A stretch of 38,261 nucleotides of DNA. It comes from Verrucomicrobiaceae bacterium. Its GTDB lineage: Bacteria > Verrucomicrobiota > Verrucomicrobiia > Opitutales > Intestinicryptomonadaceae. Each line of letters starts with the position of its first letter. Position 1 is the first letter of the stretch. Made by a program: the position numbers and the translations under genes. The stretch lies in NCBI GenBank assembly GCA_015061955.1, contig SUVO01000023.1:1-38261 (forward strand). The letters run 5' to 3'. Below the pieces are notes generated by a model. The model had not been told where the DNA came from. It ran no database searches and saw nothing but the letters and a program-made list of their open reading frames with translations. Shown here in pieces: positions 1 through 17,398 of this stretch.

Positions 1-50
1 GAAGTTATTCAGCAAAAATAATACAAAGACAAAATATATTTACAAAATTT

Positions 51-103: not shown

Positions 104-132
104 TTGACAAAGATTATGGGGGGGGGTATTAC
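104..132 (+). promoter_or_regulatory. Near-consensus sigma70-type promoter with nine-G run in its spacer
   Basis: The -35 box is TTGACA at 104-109, followed by a 17-base spacer and TATTAC at 127-132. The last nine spacer bases (118-126) are all G, the only such run in this AT-rich window. The predicted transcript starts near 139 and gives a leader of about 20 bases containing an AAGGAG ribosome site (150-155). A homopolymer here could slip and alter -35/-10 spacing, as known for the poly-G in the Neisseria meningitidis porA promoter. The promoter call is direct; phase variation is inference. Confidence 0.75.
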
Positions 133-159
133 TTGCTTAGTGATTATCAAAGGAGTTTT

Positions 160-3100
160 ATGAAAATTTTGTTAGTACTTTTAAGCTTTTTGTTGACAAC
201 ATCGCTCTTTGCGGGGCAGGTTTTCTACGTTGTAGAAGGTGGTGCAGGTAAGAAAGATGGCATGTCGTGGGCGAATGCCTTTAGCGATGTTCAAACTGCG
301 ATTGATAAAGCATACGAAGTTGCAACAGCCGATAACCCAAGCGAAGTCTGGATAGCCAAAGGCACATATAAACATGGTTCTGAAATGACCATGAAAAATA
401 ACGTTGCTATCTTCGGTGGCTTTGCTGGAACTGAAACAAGCAAAGAGCAACGTGTAGTTGGCAATGAAACAATCCTTGATGGCGAAGGTAAGTATAGAGT
501 TTTCTATAATCCAAATATAACCAATAGTGCAAAATTAGATAATGTAACAATTCAGAATGGTAAAACTTCAGGTGATGGAGCAGGAATGTATAACTACTAC
601 GCCAGCCCAGAAATCACAAATTGCACGTTCAGTGACAACAGTGCAAGACGTGGCTGCGGGATGTATAATTCTGGAGGTAGTCCGAAGTTGACAAATTGCA
701 CGTTCAGTGGCAACACCGGCGGCGGGATGTATAATTCTCGCTCGAGTCCGACGTTGACAAATTGCACCTTTGTGAACAACAGTGTTTCTTTAGGCGGCGG
801 GATGTGTAATGAAGATTACTCGAGTCCCGTATTGACAAATTGCACCTTTGCAAGCAACAGTGCTGAATACGGCGGTGGGATGTATAATTGTTTTTCCTCG
901 AGTCCGACGTTGACAAATTGCACGTTCAGTGGCAACAGTGCTTCTTCTTGGGGCGGCGGGATGTTTAATGATTCCTCGAGTCCGGTGTTGACAAATTGCA
1001 CGTTCAGTGGCAACAGTGCTGAATACGGCGGCGGGATGTATAATGGTTTCTCGAGTCCGACGTTGACAAATTGCATATTATGGGGAAATACAGCGTCATC
1101 AAGTGGCAATGAAATCTATAATGGGTATTCAAATAATAATCCAACAATAGACACGTGTATAATACAGGGTGGATATAGTAGTTATGGCACTTATACAAAC
1201 ATCATAGAAACTGATCCAATGCTAATGCCACTTGGCAACTATGGTGGAAGTGTGTTTACGTGTTCTGTTGCGGAGGGTAGTTCTGCTATCGGTGCTGGTA
1301 AAGTTGTAGAAGGACTAACAACCGATGCTCGTGGCTATACACGTTCAACAACAGCACCAACAATTGGGGCTTATGAATATGGTGTAACACTCCAAAACGA
1401 ATCTTCAAGCATAACAGTATCATTCTTACCCGATATTAAACTTAAAGAAGGTGGAACATATACCTATAATACCAAGGCTGATAATTCGATTGAAAATACA
1501 ACTATTACATACAACTGGCAAGTAGATAAGCTTGATGGAAAAGGTTGGGTAAAAGCTGGCAGTACTAAAAATACTCTCAAGGTATCAGCCAAAGCAAATA
1601 TGGATGGTTGGAAGTATCGTTGCGAAGTTTCAAATGGTGTTGATACAGTAATGTCGAATGTGTCAACTTTAGATGTATTAACAAAGGCAAAAATCACAAC
1701 TCAGCCAACAGTTGATGCAGTCGCATCGGGTGGAACGTTAACCTTAACGGCAGGTGCAACAGGCGACAACTTAAAATATCAGTGGCAAGAGAAAGTCGGC
1801 AAAGAGTGGGTAAATATATCAGGGGAAACCTCAGAAACTCTCACTATTAGTGGATTAACTTCAGCCGACAACAACACTGAATATCGTTGTGTAGTTTCAA
1901 ACGATGGCTCTTCTGTTACAACAAAGTCAGTTAAAGTTCCAGTTGTCTCAAAGCCAACATATACTATTGATGAAAAGAAGCACGTTCCAGAGGTTGCTAT
2001 AATCGAGGGCAAGAAGAATAAGGCAACGTTTGCAATAAAAGCTACAAAGCCAAAGGGCGAAACAGGCACATACAAGTATCAGTGGTACAAGAATGGCGAG
2101 CCTATCGCAAAGGCAACAAAGGCAACGTACACAACAGATGTCTTAACCGAAGCCGACTTTGAAAAAGACCCAACCGACAATATCTATTACACCAAAGACA
2201 CGTATTATTGTGTAATCTCGGTAGATGTAAAAAAGACAATCGTAAACAAAGCTCAAACCGAAAACTTCAAAGTAATGAAGCTTGAGCCAGCCAAGATTTT
2301 GGTAAATCCAGTAGATGTTTTAGTTTCGGATAAAGAAGATGCAATCTTTACAGCAGAAGCTACAAAGACATCAGGAGTAAAGGCAGTGTATCAGTGGCAA
2401 GTTTGTGCGTTCGGCTCAGATCCTGAAAATCCAAAGAACTGGAAGAACTCATCAAAAGGTGCAACACTCACACTCAAGAAAGCAACAGTAAAGCTTTCGG
2501 GCAACTTGTATCGTTGCCAAGTGTATAACGACCTCAACAAAAAAGACCCCGATACTTCAACATACGCAAAGTTAGAAGTAGAAGGAGCACCAATAATCAA
2601 AACTCAACCAAAGGCAATTACAACATACGAAGGTGCATCGGCAAACTTGTCTGTATTAGCTCAAGGTTATAATTTGAAATATCAGTGGTATGTTTCGGAT
2701 TCAGGTAAAAAAGATACTTGGTCAGTCCTTGAGGGCGAAACATCTGCAACGCTTATATCAACAGCCGATTCAACAAAATTCTATCAGTGCAAAGTGTGGA
2801 GTAAAGATTCTCCAGATAAAGTTGTTGTTTCAAAGTCGGCAAAAACTACAGTCAAAGCTGGTGTACAAATAAATGGCTATACGGTATCGCAATATTCAAC
2901 TATTTTGGAAGATGTTGGTACCAACGAATTTGAGGTATACGAAGATTTTTCTTTAGAATTGCGTGTATATGCTACTGGTGATAAACCAAAATATCAGTGG
3001 TATTGTTCAGATGATGGCGAAACATTCACAGCTATTGCTGGAGCAACTAAAGATACATTGCTTGTTGATCCAGTATTTATGCAAGATAAAATTTATTATT

Positions 3101-3846
3101 GCGAAGTCTTTAATGGCACAACTAAACTAAATTATACCGATGGCACAAACGTAAAAACTAACGATATTTACTTGTATGTAAAACAGAGTATGTTGCCAAA
3201 GTCATTAGTGGGCTTGGGGGTGGCTGCTACTTATACTGAATACGAATCTGTAAGCACTTTTATGGTATTTCAAGATACTCGTTATTTCAGAATGACTGTA
3301 AGCTCGGCTCCGTATGTACCATTTGAAAAAACAATGTATTTGTATAACAGAATTTCTCCATTTGAAGCTGAAATATCGTTGTCGTTTATGGATATGTATA
3401 ATGGTCGAAAAACTTTGATGAATTTTAAAGGCTATTTATACTACGATGAGGAAATAAATGGTGTAGTTGCTATCTTGGTTGATGAAGGTAAAGACGTATT
3501 TTTGTCGTTTATTGTAGATAGATTTATTGCAAGCGAATATATGTGGCAGACTTTACCTTTAAATTCTGTAATAACTTTCCAAGGTATTGATAAATACTCT
3601 CAATCAATAAAAATTCTCTCACCTAAAGTATGTTTGTATACCGGACCAACGGGATCTTTTGAATGTTCTTACACTTATGTAAAGAAAAGTGGAACGTTAG
3701 GTATTATTACACTCATAACTAATAGCGATAAATGGGAATTGAACTTGTTGTACGATTCCCCCGAAGGTGGCGAGTATTTAGATTATCTAACACGTTTTAA
3801 CGAGGCAATTAATAGTGAATGTGGTACATTTACCATAAAACGTTAA
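160..3846 (+). CDS. Secreted giant surface protein: beta-helix head, six Ig-like modules, unrecognised C-terminal domain
   Basis: A 1228-residue protein. The ATG at 160 is preferred over a TTG at 133 because AAGGAG lies just upstream and the protein then begins with a clean signal peptide (MKILLVLLSFLLTTSLFA). Residues ~20-420 resemble right-handed parallel beta-helix proteins, with repeats of the type LTNCTFSGNSA..GGGMYN. Residues ~425-1005 hold six Ig-like modules, each marked by a (Y)QW and a Y(R/Y/Q)C motif. Residues ~1010-1228 form a beta-rich domain I do not recognise, shared with the protein at 13166-17398. No LPXTG motif, autotransporter barrel or other known anchor was seen. It is probably an exported adhesin or glycan-binding protein; the ligand is unknown. 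It stands alone, flanked by terminators on both sides. Confidence 0.85.
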   Translation: MKILLVLLSFLLTTSLFAGQVFYVVEGGAGKKDGMSWANAFSDVQTAIDKAYEVATADNPSEVWIAKGTYKHGSEMTMKNNVAIFGGFAGTETSKEQRVVGNETILDGEGKYRVFYNPNITNSAKLDNVTIQNGKTSGDGAGMYNYYASPEITNCTFSDNSARRGCGMYNSGGSPKLTNCTFSGNTGGGMYNSRSSPTLTNCTFVNNSVSLGGGMCNEDYSSPVLTNCTFASNSAEYGGGMYNCFSSSPTLTNCTFSGNSASSWGGGMFNDSSSPVLTNCTFSGNSAEYGGGMYNGFSSPTLTNCILWGNTASSSGNEIYNGYSNNNPTIDTCIIQGGYSSYGTYTNIIETDPMLMPLGNYGGSVFTCSVAEGSSAIGAGKVVEGLTTDARGYTRSTTAPTIGAYEYGVTLQNESSSITVSFLPDIKLKEGGTYTYNTKADNSIENTTITYNWQVDKLDGKGWVKAGSTKNTLKVSAKANMDGWKYRCEVSNGVDTVMSNVSTLDVLTKAKITTQPTVDAVASGGTLTLTAGATGDNLKYQWQEKVGKEWVNISGETSETLTISGLTSADNNTEYRCVVSNDGSSVTTKSVKVPVVSKPTYTIDEKKHVPEVAIIEGKKNKATFAIKATKPKGETGTYKYQWYKNGEPIAKATKATYTTDVLTEADFEKDPTDNIYYTKDTYYCVISVDVKKTIVNKAQTENFKVMKLEPAKILVNPVDVLVSDKEDAIFTAEATKTSGVKAVYQWQVCAFGSDPENPKNWKNSSKGATLTLKKATVKLSGNLYRCQVYNDLNKKDPDTSTYAKLEVEGAPIIKTQPKAITTYEGASANLSVLAQGYNLKYQWYVSDSGKKDTWSVLEGETSATLISTADSTKFYQCKVWSKDSPDKVVVSKSAKTTVKAGVQINGYTVSQYSTILEDVGTNEFEVYEDFSLELRVYATGDKPKYQWYCSDDGETFTAIAGATKDTLLVDPVFMQDKIYYCEVFNGTTKLNYTDGTNVKTNDIYLYVKQSMLPKSLVGLGVAATYTEYESVSTFMVFQDTRYFRMTVSSAPYVPFEKTMYLYNRISPFEAEISLSFMDMYNGRKTLMNFKGYLYYDEEINGVVAILVDEGKDVFLSFIVDRFIASEYMWQTLPLNSVITFQGIDKYSQSIKILSPKVCLYTGPTGSFECSYTYVKKSGTLGIITLITNSDKWELNLLYDSPEGGEYLDYLTRFNEAINSECGTFTIKR
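613..1080 (+). repeat. In-frame tandem DNA repeats coding for beta-helix coils
   Basis: Seven copies of a unit beginning at or near TTGACAAATTGCAC start at 613, 688, 754, 832, 910, 988 and 1063. The unit lengths are 75, 66, 78, 78, 78 and 75 bases, all multiples of three. Several copies are nearly identical at the DNA level, including the GGCGGCGGGATGTATAAT and TCGAGTCCGACG segments, which are more G+C-rich than the rest of the gene. This suggests recent duplication, and recombination could add or remove whole coils without breaking the frame. Confidence 0.85.
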
Positions 3847-3875
3847 ATTTAATAAAAACATTCACGAGCATAAAA

Positions 3876-3907
3876 AAAGATGACATCGTAAACCGATGTC
3901 ATCTTTT
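3876..3907. terminator. Bidirectional terminator between convergent genes
   Basis: A perfect 13-bp stem (3876-3888 with 3894-3906) with a 5-base loop has an A-run before it and a T-run after it. It can end both the surface-protein gene from the left and the lysine-rich gene from the right. Confidence 0.9.
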
Positions 3908-13165: not shown

Positions 13166-16100
13166 ATGAAAAGTAAATTTATGTCAATTTTTGTAGGCTC
13201 ATTAGCATTGAGTGCTGGGGCTTCGTCAATAACGTCAGATATAGATGCAAGTAAAATATCTGATTTTAGTACAAAACAAACAATTTTTGCTGGTACAGGT
13301 ATAACTTTGACTGTATCAAAAGATACAACTGGTTATACGTTCAAAGCTGGACAAAAAAATAGCGAAAACACAATCGATATTAAGAGTGGAGCAACACTCA
13401 CAACAGCACGTCGCTCCGAAACTGGCTCATCTACGGGCGAAGTTATCAATTTTAAGAACTCGTTGTTAAATATTGTTGGCGATGGTAAGTTCTATTTTAG
13501 TGCATCGGCAGAAATATATTGGAGTGGTAATATAAATGTCGATGTCCCAGTAGAGTGTCGAGGTGGTTTTTCAATGCGTCCAAATGGAACAGTGCGTTCG
13601 TTTGTGAAAATCAATAAAGATTGGAAATCAACAACATATTCTGGACAAGGATATACCGATTTGTACATCAATGCAGGTACAACAAATATGGGTGCTTATG
13701 CTCAGTGGGGCGAGCAAACAACAAGTACTATTGCAGAAGGTGCTACATTGCAAACTAGTTGGGTTCGTGCTACTAATACTGGTAGTAGATTAGAGAAGCT
13801 TACTCAGACAATGAACTTAGATGGCAATTTAATAATGTCGTCGTATGGTTCAACAGGTACAGGTGGTGCAAATGCTGTAATATTTGCATCGAATATGAAT
13901 ATTGGTCCAAGTGGTAGTTTGTTGTCGGAATATGCAACTACTAGCGACAAAATACCAATGGCTGTGTTTGCTCGTAGCTTCAGTGTTGCAGGTAAAGCCA
14001 ATTTCGGTATAGCACCATTATATATGCCCGATGGCTCTACGTTAACTCTCAAACCTGGGGCAGAAATTATAGCTGCCTCTGCTGATAATTCGCAAGAAGG
14101 AACATATATTAACATTGCAAATGTTCTTTCGCTTTACAATGCACGTCCGATTATAATTTACGATAATGATGCAAAAGTTACAAAGGCCGACGTGGCAGTA
14201 AATATCGAGGGTGAACATACATTGGGTGGCTTCAATGTGTGGGAAGGTTCAACACTTACTTTAGATTTCAAAAAGAATGGTTTTTTGAGTGTTGGCAATA
14301 TCATGTCGAATAATATGGGAAAAATTACCATAAATATAAAGGGTAATTGGCTTAAAAATAATTTCTTATTGCGTGCTACTAATATAGATTCTATTCGCGA
14401 TGAAATTGCTTTCGGTGGCGTTGTATGGCAATATAACGGAAAAGTTATCAAAGAAGGTGTAGATTTTGAATTAGAAGAAATTCCATGGGAAGAAGATAAC
14501 GGGGGTGGAATATGGTTTAACAAAAAAGGAGCAAAGGTGTTCCATACATGTTATGCCGAATCTAGCGCCGATACATTGCAAATTCCAGATACTTTCCAAA
14601 TTTCAGTAGCAACCGATATAAAACCAAATTCATATACTTTATATTGTAATGATAAAGAAGTAGCAGTTCAAGATAACCCATACTTTACAAATATTACTGC
14701 TGATAAAACAGGTATTTATAAGTACTATGTAAAGGCTGATTTTGGTGATAATAACATAGTGCAATCCGATGATGTATATGTTGAATTTAAAGAAAGTATT
14801 ATTGTTGATGAAAAAAATACATTTGGTGATTTCTCAATTGCAGATGGTGCATCGTTTACGTTGTCGGTAAAATGTACTTCTAAGAGCGATGTTTCTTACA
14901 AGTGGGAAGTTGATAAACAAGACGGCAATGGTTTTGTTGAAGAAAAAACAAAAACTGAAACTTATACTGCAAAAGCCTCCTCAAATATGAATGGTTGGGT
15001 ATATCGTTGTACAATGTCAAATGGTATTGACGATGTTACTGTTGAAGGTAAGTTGACTATATTAGAACCAGTTTCAAATGTTGAAATATCGTCTGTACCA
15101 GCTTATTTTAAAGTTGGTGATCCTTTGTCTATAAGTGTAGAGGCATTGGGCGATGAATTATCGTACCAGTGGGAATATTACAATCCACAAAGCAAGAGCT
15201 GGACAGTTTTATTTAACTCATTAGATGATGCAATTAGTGAAGATTCTAGTTCTAATGAAGGTGAAGATGGATTTATTGATGCCGATGGAAATGGTATAGC
15301 AGATAATCTGGAAGGTGCTGAAGATGCTCCAAGTGGTGATGAGCCAGCCGACGATGAGCCAAAAGCTACTATTGAAGGTGCAAGATCTGCTGTATTGACC
15401 GTTTCTGAATTATTTGCTCGCGACAATAATGCACAGTATCGTTGCGTTGTTTCAAATAACGGCTCAACTGCAACATCTAAGCCTATAAAGGTTGTAGTAG
15501 TTGCACAACCTACATACGAACTCGATAAAAAACATGCTCCAGAAGCATTTGTAGGTGGCAAGGCAACATTTGCAATTAAGGCTTCTAAAATTGCTAAAGA
15601 TCAAACAGGAACATTGAAGTATCAGTGGTATAAAAATGGTGTAGCAATTGAAAAGGCAACTAAAGCAAGCTACACTACATTGCCTCTTGAAGATGTAGAT
15701 TTTAAAGATGTTTACTATTGTAAGATTTTGGTAGATGTTAAGGGCGAAACAGCAAATTTATTGCAGACAGAAGATTTCAAAATTACAAAACTTTTCAATG
15801 CTAAGGTTGCAACAAGTCCGGCTGATTTCATAGCCGAAGATGGTGGCGAAGCAACTTTTAAAGTTAGTGTAACTGCTGAATCTGGAACTAAGATAACATA
15901 TCAGTGGCAAGTTTGTACTGCAGGTGCAGATCCAACTGTTGAAAAGAATTGGAAGAGTGCAAGTGGCAAAACCGAAACATTGGTATTGAAAAAAGTAAAC
16001 GTAAAGTTGTCGGGTAATTTGTATCGTTGCAAAGTTTCAAACGATGGTAATAAGAAAGATCCAGATGTTTCAGATTGGGCAAAGTTAGAAGTTAAGGCAC

Positions 16101-17398
16101 CAGCGATTGTAAAAACTCAACCAAAGGCTATTACAGCATACGAAACAAAGATTGCCTCGTTTGCAGTTGTTGCACAGGGTTATAAGGTAAAATATCAGTG
16201 GCAGGTTAGTGCTACTGGGAAAGATGATAATAGTTGGTCAGATATTGCAGGACAAACTTCTGATGAACTCACAATTATAGCCGATGAAAATATGTTCTAT
16301 CGTTGTATGGTTTATAGCGATGGTTATAAAGATAGTGCAGTATTTACAAAATCAGCAAAACTTACAGTTAACGAAAAAGCTAAAATAAACGATGTTGTTG
16401 TAATGCAAGGTAAAAGCACTTTGACCAAAGATAATACAGGTGCATACATAGCTTACGAAGAATATCAGTTAGATATTAGCGTTTCGGCTTCTGGTAAAGG
16501 TATAAAGTATCAGTGGTATGAATCTTCCGATGGTATTGGTTGGACAGCCGTAAAGGGTGGTACAAAAGCAAAGCTTTCAATAAAACCAAATCTTCTTGAA
16601 GATAAAATCTACTATTGCAAAGTGTATAATGGTTCGGCGAAAGTTAAAGATGCAGAACCATACTCTGACGGCACAAGTGCTCAAACCGATGATATCATCA
16701 TAAATATAAAATCTTGCCCGTTGCCTAATTCAATACAAGGTAAGTCTATGACTATCTTGTTTGAAGAAACTGATAATGATGTAAAAGAAAGTGGCGAACT
16801 TTATGCAATAGCCCAAGATGCAAAGAAGTTGAGTATGGCTTTGATTTCAAAATCTAATCCAACTTCTAAGCGTTATTCCCCAAGTACATGTACATATAAG
16901 CGTACAGGACCAACAAGTGCCGACATAACCGTAAATATAACAAAGATAGAAAACGACAATGATGGTGTTAATACCGATAAAGAAACTCTCAAAGGTCAGT
17001 TGAATTATATAGATGGACAGATTGTTGGTATTTTGAAAGAAGGTAATGAAACTGAATGTGTGATTGGGGTTGAATTTGCTTCGCAGGGAGCAAATGCTCC
17101 TAAAACGTTGCCAGTTGGTGCTAAGCTAACAGTTTCAACACAAGCAGAAACTTATAGTTTTGTCTTGAAAGAAAAGGGTGTTTGTACGATTTCGGATAGT
17201 TTTGATGCTACTTACAAATACACATATAAAGCTAATAATGTGGGTGTGTTAGTAGTTTCTTATAAAGATGGAAAAATTCCAGTTGAACACGAATACACAT
17301 TTGCATTCGATACCGAAAATAATGGTGGTTTTGTAGAAAAGCTTTCCGTTAATAAAAAGGTTGAGGAAATGAAATCTGGAAGTTTCAAGTTAGAATAA
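13166..17398 (+). CDS. Secreted giant Ig-repeat surface protein, paralogue with a different head
   Basis: A 1410-residue protein with an N-terminal signal (hydrophobic segment ~7-20, SIFVGSLALSAGASS). Residues ~25-480 are a beta-solenoid-like head rich in Gly, Thr and Asn that resembles autotransporter passengers and differs from the head of the protein at 160-3846. Residues ~540-1180 hold six Ig-like modules (SYKW, SYQW, KYQW, TYQW, KYQW, KYQW, each with a later Y(R/Y)C) matching the order and individual character of the six in the paralogue. Residues ~1183-1410 match its C-terminal domain in layout (LPNS start, GSFKLE end). An acidic insert in the second Ig module carries a canonical EF-hand-type loop, DADGNGIADNLE (705-716). 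Ribosome site is weak. Ligand and anchor are unknown. Confidence 0.82.
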   Translation: MKSKFMSIFVGSLALSAGASSITSDIDASKISDFSTKQTIFAGTGITLTVSKDTTGYTFKAGQKNSENTIDIKSGATLTTARRSETGSSTGEVINFKNSLLNIVGDGKFYFSASAEIYWSGNINVDVPVECRGGFSMRPNGTVRSFVKINKDWKSTTYSGQGYTDLYINAGTTNMGAYAQWGEQTTSTIAEGATLQTSWVRATNTGSRLEKLTQTMNLDGNLIMSSYGSTGTGGANAVIFASNMNIGPSGSLLSEYATTSDKIPMAVFARSFSVAGKANFGIAPLYMPDGSTLTLKPGAEIIAASADNSQEGTYINIANVLSLYNARPIIIYDNDAKVTKADVAVNIEGEHTLGGFNVWEGSTLTLDFKKNGFLSVGNIMSNNMGKITINIKGNWLKNNFLLRATNIDSIRDEIAFGGVVWQYNGKVIKEGVDFELEEIPWEEDNGGGIWFNKKGAKVFHTCYAESSADTLQIPDTFQISVATDIKPNSYTLYCNDKEVAVQDNPYFTNITADKTGIYKYYVKADFGDNNIVQSDDVYVEFKESIIVDEKNTFGDFSIADGASFTLSVKCTSKSDVSYKWEVDKQDGNGFVEEKTKTETYTAKASSNMNGWVYRCTMSNGIDDVTVEGKLTILEPVSNVEISSVPAYFKVGDPLSISVEALGDELSYQWEYYNPQSKSWTVLFNSLDDAISEDSSSNEGEDGFIDADGNGIADNLEGAEDAPSGDEPADDEPKATIEGARSAVLTVSELFARDNNAQYRCVVSNNGSTATSKPIKVVVVAQPTYELDKKHAPEAFVGGKATFAIKASKIAKDQTGTLKYQWYKNGVAIEKATKASYTTLPLEDVDFKDVYYCKILVDVKGETANLLQTEDFKITKLFNAKVATSPADFIAEDGGEATFKVSVTAESGTKITYQWQVCTAGADPTVEKNWKSASGKTETLVLKKVNVKLSGNLYRCKVSNDGNKKDPDVSDWAKLEVKAPAIVKTQPKAITAYETKIASFAVVAQGYKVKYQWQVSATGKDDNSWSDIAGQTSDELTIIADENMFYRCMVYSDGYKDSAVFTKSAKLTVNEKAKINDVVVMQGKSTLTKDNTGAYIAYEEYQLDISVSASGKGIKYQWYESSDGIGWTAVKGGTKAKLSIKPNLLEDKIYYCKVYNGSAKVKDAEPYSDGTSAQTDDIIINIKSCPLPNSIQGKSMTILFEETDNDVKESGELYAIAQDAKKLSMALISKSNPTSKRYSPSTCTYKRTGPTSADITVNITKIENDNDGVNTDKETLKGQLNYIDGQIVGILKEGNETECVIGVEFASQGANAPKTLPVGAKLTVSTQAETYSFVLKEKGVCTISDSFDATYKYTYKANNVGVLVVSYKDGKIPVEHEYTFAFDTENNGGFVEKLSVNKKVEEMKSGSFKLE
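15208..15366 (+). other. Acidic insert with EF-hand-type calcium loop in Ig module 2
   Basis: About 50 residues rich in Asp, Glu and Ser interrupt the second Ig module. The 12-residue loop coded at 15278-15313 has Asp at 1, 3 and 9, Asn at 5, Gly at 6, Ile at 7 and Glu at 12, the full EF-hand ligand pattern. The paralogue lacks this insert. Confidence 0.7.

Follow-up and report, generated by a model that had tools for sequence, protein, structure and literature searches.

The opening of this stretch of DNA raises the question of whether a run of nine G between two promoter boxes, placed in front of a gene for a secreted-type protein, is a fixed spacer or a switch whose length changes by slippage; and, if it is a switch, whether it stands alone or belongs to a set. 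The window, by which we mean the whole stretch of 38,261 nucleotides that was analysed, comes from a Verrucomicrobiaceae bacterium whose genome assembly amounts to 2.43 Mb in 35 contigs. To our knowledge, descriptions of homopolymer phase variation have dealt mainly with single genes and come mainly from pathogens.

The promoter and its gene in the window

The preliminary description placed nine G at positions 118–126 between a TTGACA and a TATTAC box, with a 17-base spacer, before a secreted-type protein, and all of these coordinates were confirmed in the sequence. The locus comprises the following features; the module mentioned in several lines is the repeated promoter layout treated in the next section.

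1..21, forward strand: 3′ end of the upstream gene (...VIQQK, then stop), which continues upstream on contig C26
50..75, forward strand: terminator-like hairpin followed by a T run (terminator scan and RNA fold)
104..109, forward strand: −35 box TTGACA, from the sequence and the alignment of 25 module sites (GCTTGACA in most modules)
110..117, forward strand: portion of the spacer outside the G run, 8 bases long (9 or 10 in the other modules)
118..126, forward strand: tract of nine G (G9), where slippage is proposed (the locus has G10 in its other assembled copy)
127..132, forward strand: −10 box TATTAC (TAGCAT or TAGTAT in most other modules of the 25-site alignment)
133..138, forward strand: TTGCTT, similar to the TTTGCT that many modules carry after the −10 box (consensus TAGnATTTGcT)
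149..155, forward strand: AAAGGAG, resembling a ribosome-binding site, from the sequence
160..3846, forward strand: gene for a secreted-type protein of 1228 amino acids (domain matches; N-terminus judged by eye)
3875..3907, no strand assigned: hairpin 3′ of the gene, listed by the terminator scan as terminator-like on the minus strand

The spacer at 110–126 totals 17 bases (8 plus G9), and the ATG at 160 lies 33 nt downstream of the G run; the TTGCTT at 133–138 may perhaps sit around the transcript start. The region 40–85 folds at −16.7 kcal/mol (z = −6.8), and because its hairpin and T run at 50–75 separate the upstream gene from the module, the promoter probably gives rise to a transcript of its own. 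A generic sigma-70 scan did not return the site at 104–132, because TATTAC fails the fixed T that the scan expects at position 6. Runs of at least seven G occur at a single place in the window (3 overlapping 7-mers versus 0.43 expected; 3 of 100 shuffles reached as high), and G9 is the sole run of G or C of at least eight. The uniqueness claimed for the run in the preliminary description therefore holds within the window and is lost in the genome, where we counted 41 runs of at least seven G and 37 of at least eight. A G-quadruplex at this site is unlikely: G9 is a single run, and the four separate runs known in general to form such a structure are lacking.

The 1228-residue protein has a signal-like N-terminus, as judged by eye, together with a choice-of-anchor Q domain (NCBIfam), Ig-like domains and a weak beta-helix repeat match below the cut-off. 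Its C-terminal end, ...ECGTFTIKR, is not a PEP-CTERM tail, and no PEP-CTERM model is found among its NCBIfam matches. A second Ig-like protein encoded in the window (13166–17398, 1410 amino acids) resembles it by eye; upstream of that gene GCTTGCCAAG is present and a G run is absent, and it is a possible non-switching paralogue.

One promoter module before many PEP-CTERM genes

The arrangement recurs throughout the genome. A module of the form TTGACA-N8..10-G8..10-TA, with a spacer of 17–19 bases, accounts for 29 of the 37 runs of at least eight G and precedes secreted-type proteins; 28 of these sites are in the site list and the other is C24:67785, the halves of which fall in two extracted stretches. 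They correspond to 27 loci once two contig ends are set aside, namely C26, which is the window's own locus, and C21, which we assume on the basis of 35 shared bases to repeat the C7 end and which probably does so. The layout consists of a T-rich stretch, GCTTGACA, 8–10 bases, G8–10, TAgnAT and often TTTGCT, followed by the ATG of a secreted-type protein 33–75 nt downstream of the G run, and the run is on the sense strand at all 27 loci with a readable gene. Chance placement is ruled out by the reversed pattern, which gave 0 matches in this genome against 25 for the forward pattern. The homopolymer between the −35 and −10 boxes is pure, and total spacing stays within one or two bases of 17 at every one of the 27 loci (17 in 2, 18 in 11 and 19 in 14). 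The products are of surface or secreted type, with signal-like N-termini as judged by eye.

Most of these products share a C-terminal signature. Using a motif, we recognized a PEP-CTERM-like tail (for example, VPEPAEWAMIFGAIALGFVAYRRRK) in 25 of the 27 module genes, that is, in 24 of the 26 proteins of the first set and in the 27th protein; the two genes without a tail are that of the window's own protein and one for a Sel1-repeat protein (L055). The TIGR02595 model, which describes a C-terminal PEP motif, a hydrophobic stretch and an Arg-rich end, places 15 of the 25 tailed proteins over its cut-off and 4 just under it, with 6 unlisted. The stricter Pfam model for PEP-CTERM (PF07589) has 18 matches in the genome, 6 of which are module genes; for four tailed module proteins the match was under the cut-off in two and absent in two. 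Exosortase (PF09721) is matched three times over the cut-off in this genome, and 1 of 14 named control genomes also has a match. A tail profile built from 21 of the tails, which match it by construction, found 47 strong tails in the genome (2 weak ones omitted): 25 behind the module, 5 with another G or C run of 8–9 and 17 with no run. The probability that 25 of 27 module genes would land on the 47 tails by chance is below 1e-38 (assuming 1500 to 2500 genes). The 17 runless genes, among which several frames are short or incomplete and have uncertain starts, were checked for runs of at least six G or C between −150 and +120 relative to a script-selected start. About half of the exosortase-type surface proteins (25 of 47) appear to be under one slippery promoter design in one species.

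Duplication plays a part in the descent of the module genes, because some similarity is detectable in 299 of the 351 pairs of their proteins. It could be argued that the modules spread by duplication together with their genes, as a static promoter family in which the G run is carried along as a neutral passenger, and the occurrence of the module in one of 14 species of the genus, which fits a recent expansion, agrees with such a history, as do the 299 pairs. Yet the proteins are mostly far diverged: alignments covering more than 60% of the shorter member were obtained for 26 of 351 pairs, and identity peaks at 51%, with 25–40% in the 11 further pairs listed. The rest of the spacer varies too, whereas all 20 sites of the form CTTGACA-N14..22-TANNATTTG in the genome (including the C7 and C21 contig ends, which are perhaps one locus) contain an unbroken G8–10, and a neutral G9 should show interruptions. 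We therefore judge a passive origin of the tracts to be very improbable. The number of G is anti-correlated with the length of the remaining spacer (ρ = −0.61, permutation P = 0.0017), which we rejected as proof of selection, as substitutions at the edge of the tract and common ancestry yield the same anti-correlation. Given how far the downstream proteins have diverged, tract purity is, on comparison of the sequences, the more telling observation.

A different account treats the tract and its conserved flanks as the site or signature of a dedicated regulator or sigma factor of PEP-CTERM genes, with a fixed length and with any phase variation incidental. Against it, tract length ranges over 8–10 among the modules and is both nine and ten at the window locus, and five more PEP-CTERM genes have runs of 8–9 in other positions, three of them within signal-peptide code; slippage accounts for these additional runs and a protein bound to the spacer does not. 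What speaks for it is the conservation of the flanks beyond the core boxes (T-rich GCTTGACA and TAGnATTTGcT), the regulon-like restriction to one functional class of gene and a palindrome-like motif common to five other PEP-CTERM genes, from which co-regulation of some kind probably occurs here. On balance we think a dedicated regulator site unlikely.

The five genes with runs in other positions comprise two with G8 in signal-peptide code (L040, on C9), one with C8 in signal-peptide code (L063, C31:78.5 kb) and two with C runs farther upstream. The G8 and C8 runs within signal-peptide code are in frame as assembled, and are candidates for translational on/off switching beside the promoter type. 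At C8:53.6 kb on the minus strand (L037), TTTTTTGCTTGACATA, then C8, then TAATAAATTAGG occur about 108 nt upstream of a PEP-CTERM gene, an arrangement that has the left half of the module but a C run where the G run would be. The palindrome-like motif, TGGGTATTTnTAATACT with small differences, lies between −35-like and TATA-like boxes of five runless PEP-CTERM genes (L250, L253, L254, L256 and L261), and a near copy lies upstream of a PEP-CTERM gene in congener G002 (L146). It is a likely operator, and these five upstream regions seem to represent a further promoter class, this one regulated, for genes of the same type. At C34:49 kb (L260, also L142), where two PEP-CTERM tails occur in succession, a PEP-CTERM frame starts immediately after a short tandem repeat of about three TATAGTTTATAGAGGA units, possibly another repeat-based switch.

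Two assembled tract lengths and probable spacer-length phase variation

The window locus was assembled twice, with G9 at the start of C15 and with G10 at the end of C26. The C26 end is the same as the first 153 bases of the window apart from ten G in place of nine; the copies are thus identical over 126 bases, through the ninth G, after which the window copy has T and the C26 copy G. Overlaps of exactly 127 bases (six pairs) or 126 (two pairs) also occur between eight further pairs of contig ends, which suggests that a k-mer graph with k near this value forked at the tract, and many ends share shorter repeat pieces of 16–121 bases. The branching suggests that both tract lengths are present in the data, and the pair could stem from slippage in PCR, library preparation or sequencing. 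Of 70 contig ends, 4 fall no more than 150 bases from a tract, versus 0.18 expected, an excess that probably represents two loci only and that we take as weak (both ends of C25 are N). Separately, many contig ends, among them those of C2, C3, C7, C8, C9, C18 and C31 and the distal end of C15, carry shared interspersed repeats (GTGCTTGTAGCTAAAAGAGCGTCTGCT... and CAAAAGTGCGTCATAAGC...) that are apparently unrelated to G tracts.

Both the G9/G10 difference and the contig break may be artefacts of sequencing or assembly at a homopolymer, and then carry no information on the cells. The number of assembled copies is only two, and the C7 and C21 ends also stop within 16 bases of a G10 tract, as can result from poor sequencing. 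The G10 branch was, however, retained with 27 bases past the tract, which is unexpected for a rare error. We consider an artefact possible but doubtful, and the remaining argument for phase variation is independent of this pair.

We judge it highly probable that slippage drives transcriptional phase variation here, of the type described for porA and tp0126 (see below) and deployed as a battery over exosortase-sorted surface proteins. This was the reading proposed at the outset for the window locus, and the sequence evidence favours it through the anatomy of the promoter, the repetition of the module, the G9/G10 pair and the differing tracts in Microcystis (G11 and G14) and genus g135 (G13 and G10). 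According to this model, the G9 run would be the variable spacer of a sigma-70-type promoter, and slipped-strand mispairing at replication would add or remove one G. The distance between the −35 and −10 boxes would shift between a near-optimal value of about 17, the weak values 18 and 19, and 16, and transcription of the downstream gene would be tuned or switched in a heritable and reversible manner. About 27 genes stand behind the same module and each would slip on its own, so that a clonal population is expected to display many different surface coats. Random switching of portions of the cell's outer coat, through gain and loss of G between promoter boxes, is thus the probable outcome. We infer that tract lengths differ between cells and that spacing sets expression in this organism, and selection would act on the resulting coat.

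If the usual sigma-70 optimum is valid here, most modules (spacers of 18–19) are predicted to be weaker in the assembled genome and the window gene (17) to be strong. The same optimum provides an argument against phase variation, as 25 of the 27 modules are at 18–19 rather than 17, and most would thus be weak; most −10 boxes, including TAGCAT and TATTAC, are also poor. Should phase variation be correct, combinatorial variation of the coat would provide a function for PEP-CTERM proteins, the role of which is little understood, and short-read assemblies are predicted to break or mislead at exactly these genes.

Relatives, distant lineages and published switches

The module is not a genus-wide trait: a scan with the module pattern found it in 0 of 13 congeners, and it was found in 0 of 5 further members of the family. 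Because the 13 congeners are without it, the module is not essential to exosortase sorting. Without its G run, the pattern gave 0 forward matches in the congeners, with a single match in each of G002, G011 and G012 for its reversed control. The count of runs of at least eight G lies between 1 and 67 per congener, compared with 37 in this genome; as three congeners exceed that figure (38, 47 and 67), richness in G runs is by itself unremarkable. The TTGACA geometry was absent at the 15 congener G-run loci viewed (of 27 retrieved), many of which are coding and GC-rich. The only G8 run of congener G003 (a single contig; L221) lies 16 nt before the ATG of a signal-peptide-like sequence, with TTGACT just upstream, and is perhaps a relative of the switch with a different −35 box.

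Beyond the family, the promoter pattern with at least eight G was found in 5 of 372 genomes of the order and in 27 of 387 of a phylum sample, two samples with genomes in common, this one among them; in the rows listed from the two scans the reversed control had 0 matches. The 367 order and 360 phylum genomes with no match count against phase variation. In genus g135 of the phylum, the geometry is present in 10 of 17 genomes and PEP-CTERM genes follow 12 of the 24 sites; apparent homologues differ in tract (G13 in L285 and G10 in L303). Genome G172, from another family of the order, has two sites, each followed by a PEP-CTERM frame; the start of one of these frames is uncertain. Four phylum matches (L273, L274, L278 and L280) are upstream of genes that look housekeeping-like by eye, and are probably due to chance.

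An uncontrolled scan of named genomes returned 20 stretches from diverse phyla; 13 have a readable frame, and about 10 of the products look secreted or membrane-bound as judged by eye (two of these, from L075 and L078, share the same starting sequence). Among the stretches, two Microcystis species have closely similar promoters upstream of PEP-CTERM genes, with G11 and G14. The bases nearest the promoters match, ungapped identity is 54% over 200 upstream bases and the proteins differ past the signal peptide, a pattern that points to homology, with orthology not proven. Other lineages have the geometry with different flanks, which argues both against a dedicated regulator site and against a passenger tract. 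The module is peculiar to this species and the general geometry is wider.

The preliminary description compared the locus with porA of Neisseria meningitidis, in which a poly-G tract between the −35 and −10 boxes sets transcription of a surface protein around a spacing of 17 (PMC7864442). The comparison is apt, and the excerpted account of tp0126 of Treponema pallidum offers a closer published parallel: its poly-G lies between the −35 and −10 boxes with best transcription at a spacing of 17, and the tract of tprL varies over lengths of 7–11 within isolates (PMC7864442). porA is one gene of a pathogen, whereas about 27 promoters of one design occur in this genome, mostly before exosortase-type proteins. 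tp0126 shares with our module the poly-G between the boxes, but it and the tpr genes encode putative outer-membrane proteins that were studied singly and, in the excerpts of that article cited here, have no link to PEP-CTERM, whereas our genes are mostly of that kind. At CT533/lpxC of Chlamydia trachomatis a homopolymer lies between predicted −35 and −10 boxes, with 12 A in 87% and 11 A in 9% of reads (PMC4514472, in excerpt); that tract is poly-A at a single lipid A gene, in contrast to poly-G before a battery of surface proteins.

Akkermansia muciniphila, probably a relative, provides a likeness of another sort. According to excerpts of two papers, invertible promoters lie close to its PEP-CTERM genes (inverton group 138, PMC11892184), and its genome paper counted 21 PEP-CTERM proteins and suggested phase variation by mononucleotide repeats, naming two capsule genes (PMC3048395). 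Random switching near PEP-CTERM genes is common to that organism, so far as these excerpts go, and to the switch proposed here; the mechanism differs, being DNA inversion at inverted repeats there and, as we propose, homopolymer slippage here. No report of poly-G-spacer promoters before PEP-CTERM genes was found among the matches listed from the open-access literature. The kind of switch is already known; its scale and the PEP-CTERM link look new.

Taking these lines together, we lean slightly towards a broader reading, in which poly-G-spacer promoters would be a dedicated and repeatedly evolved switch for exosortase-sorted coats. The 25 PEP-CTERM genes, with up to 5 more that have runs elsewhere in or before the gene, would slip independently and give each cell a random combination of coat proteins; the system would be the slippage counterpart of the invertible promoters of Akkermansia, with separate origins in the family of G172, in genus g135 and in Microcystis.

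Stretches from candidate division WOR-3 (L066, L068, L069, L077 and L082) contain copies of TTGACA-N7/8-G10..14-TATAATTTGTCCCGTAA. Downstream genes are mostly unreadable in the stretches retrieved; the boxes are near consensus, the poly-G spacers measure 18–21 bases and two assemblies have two poly-G-spacer copies each.
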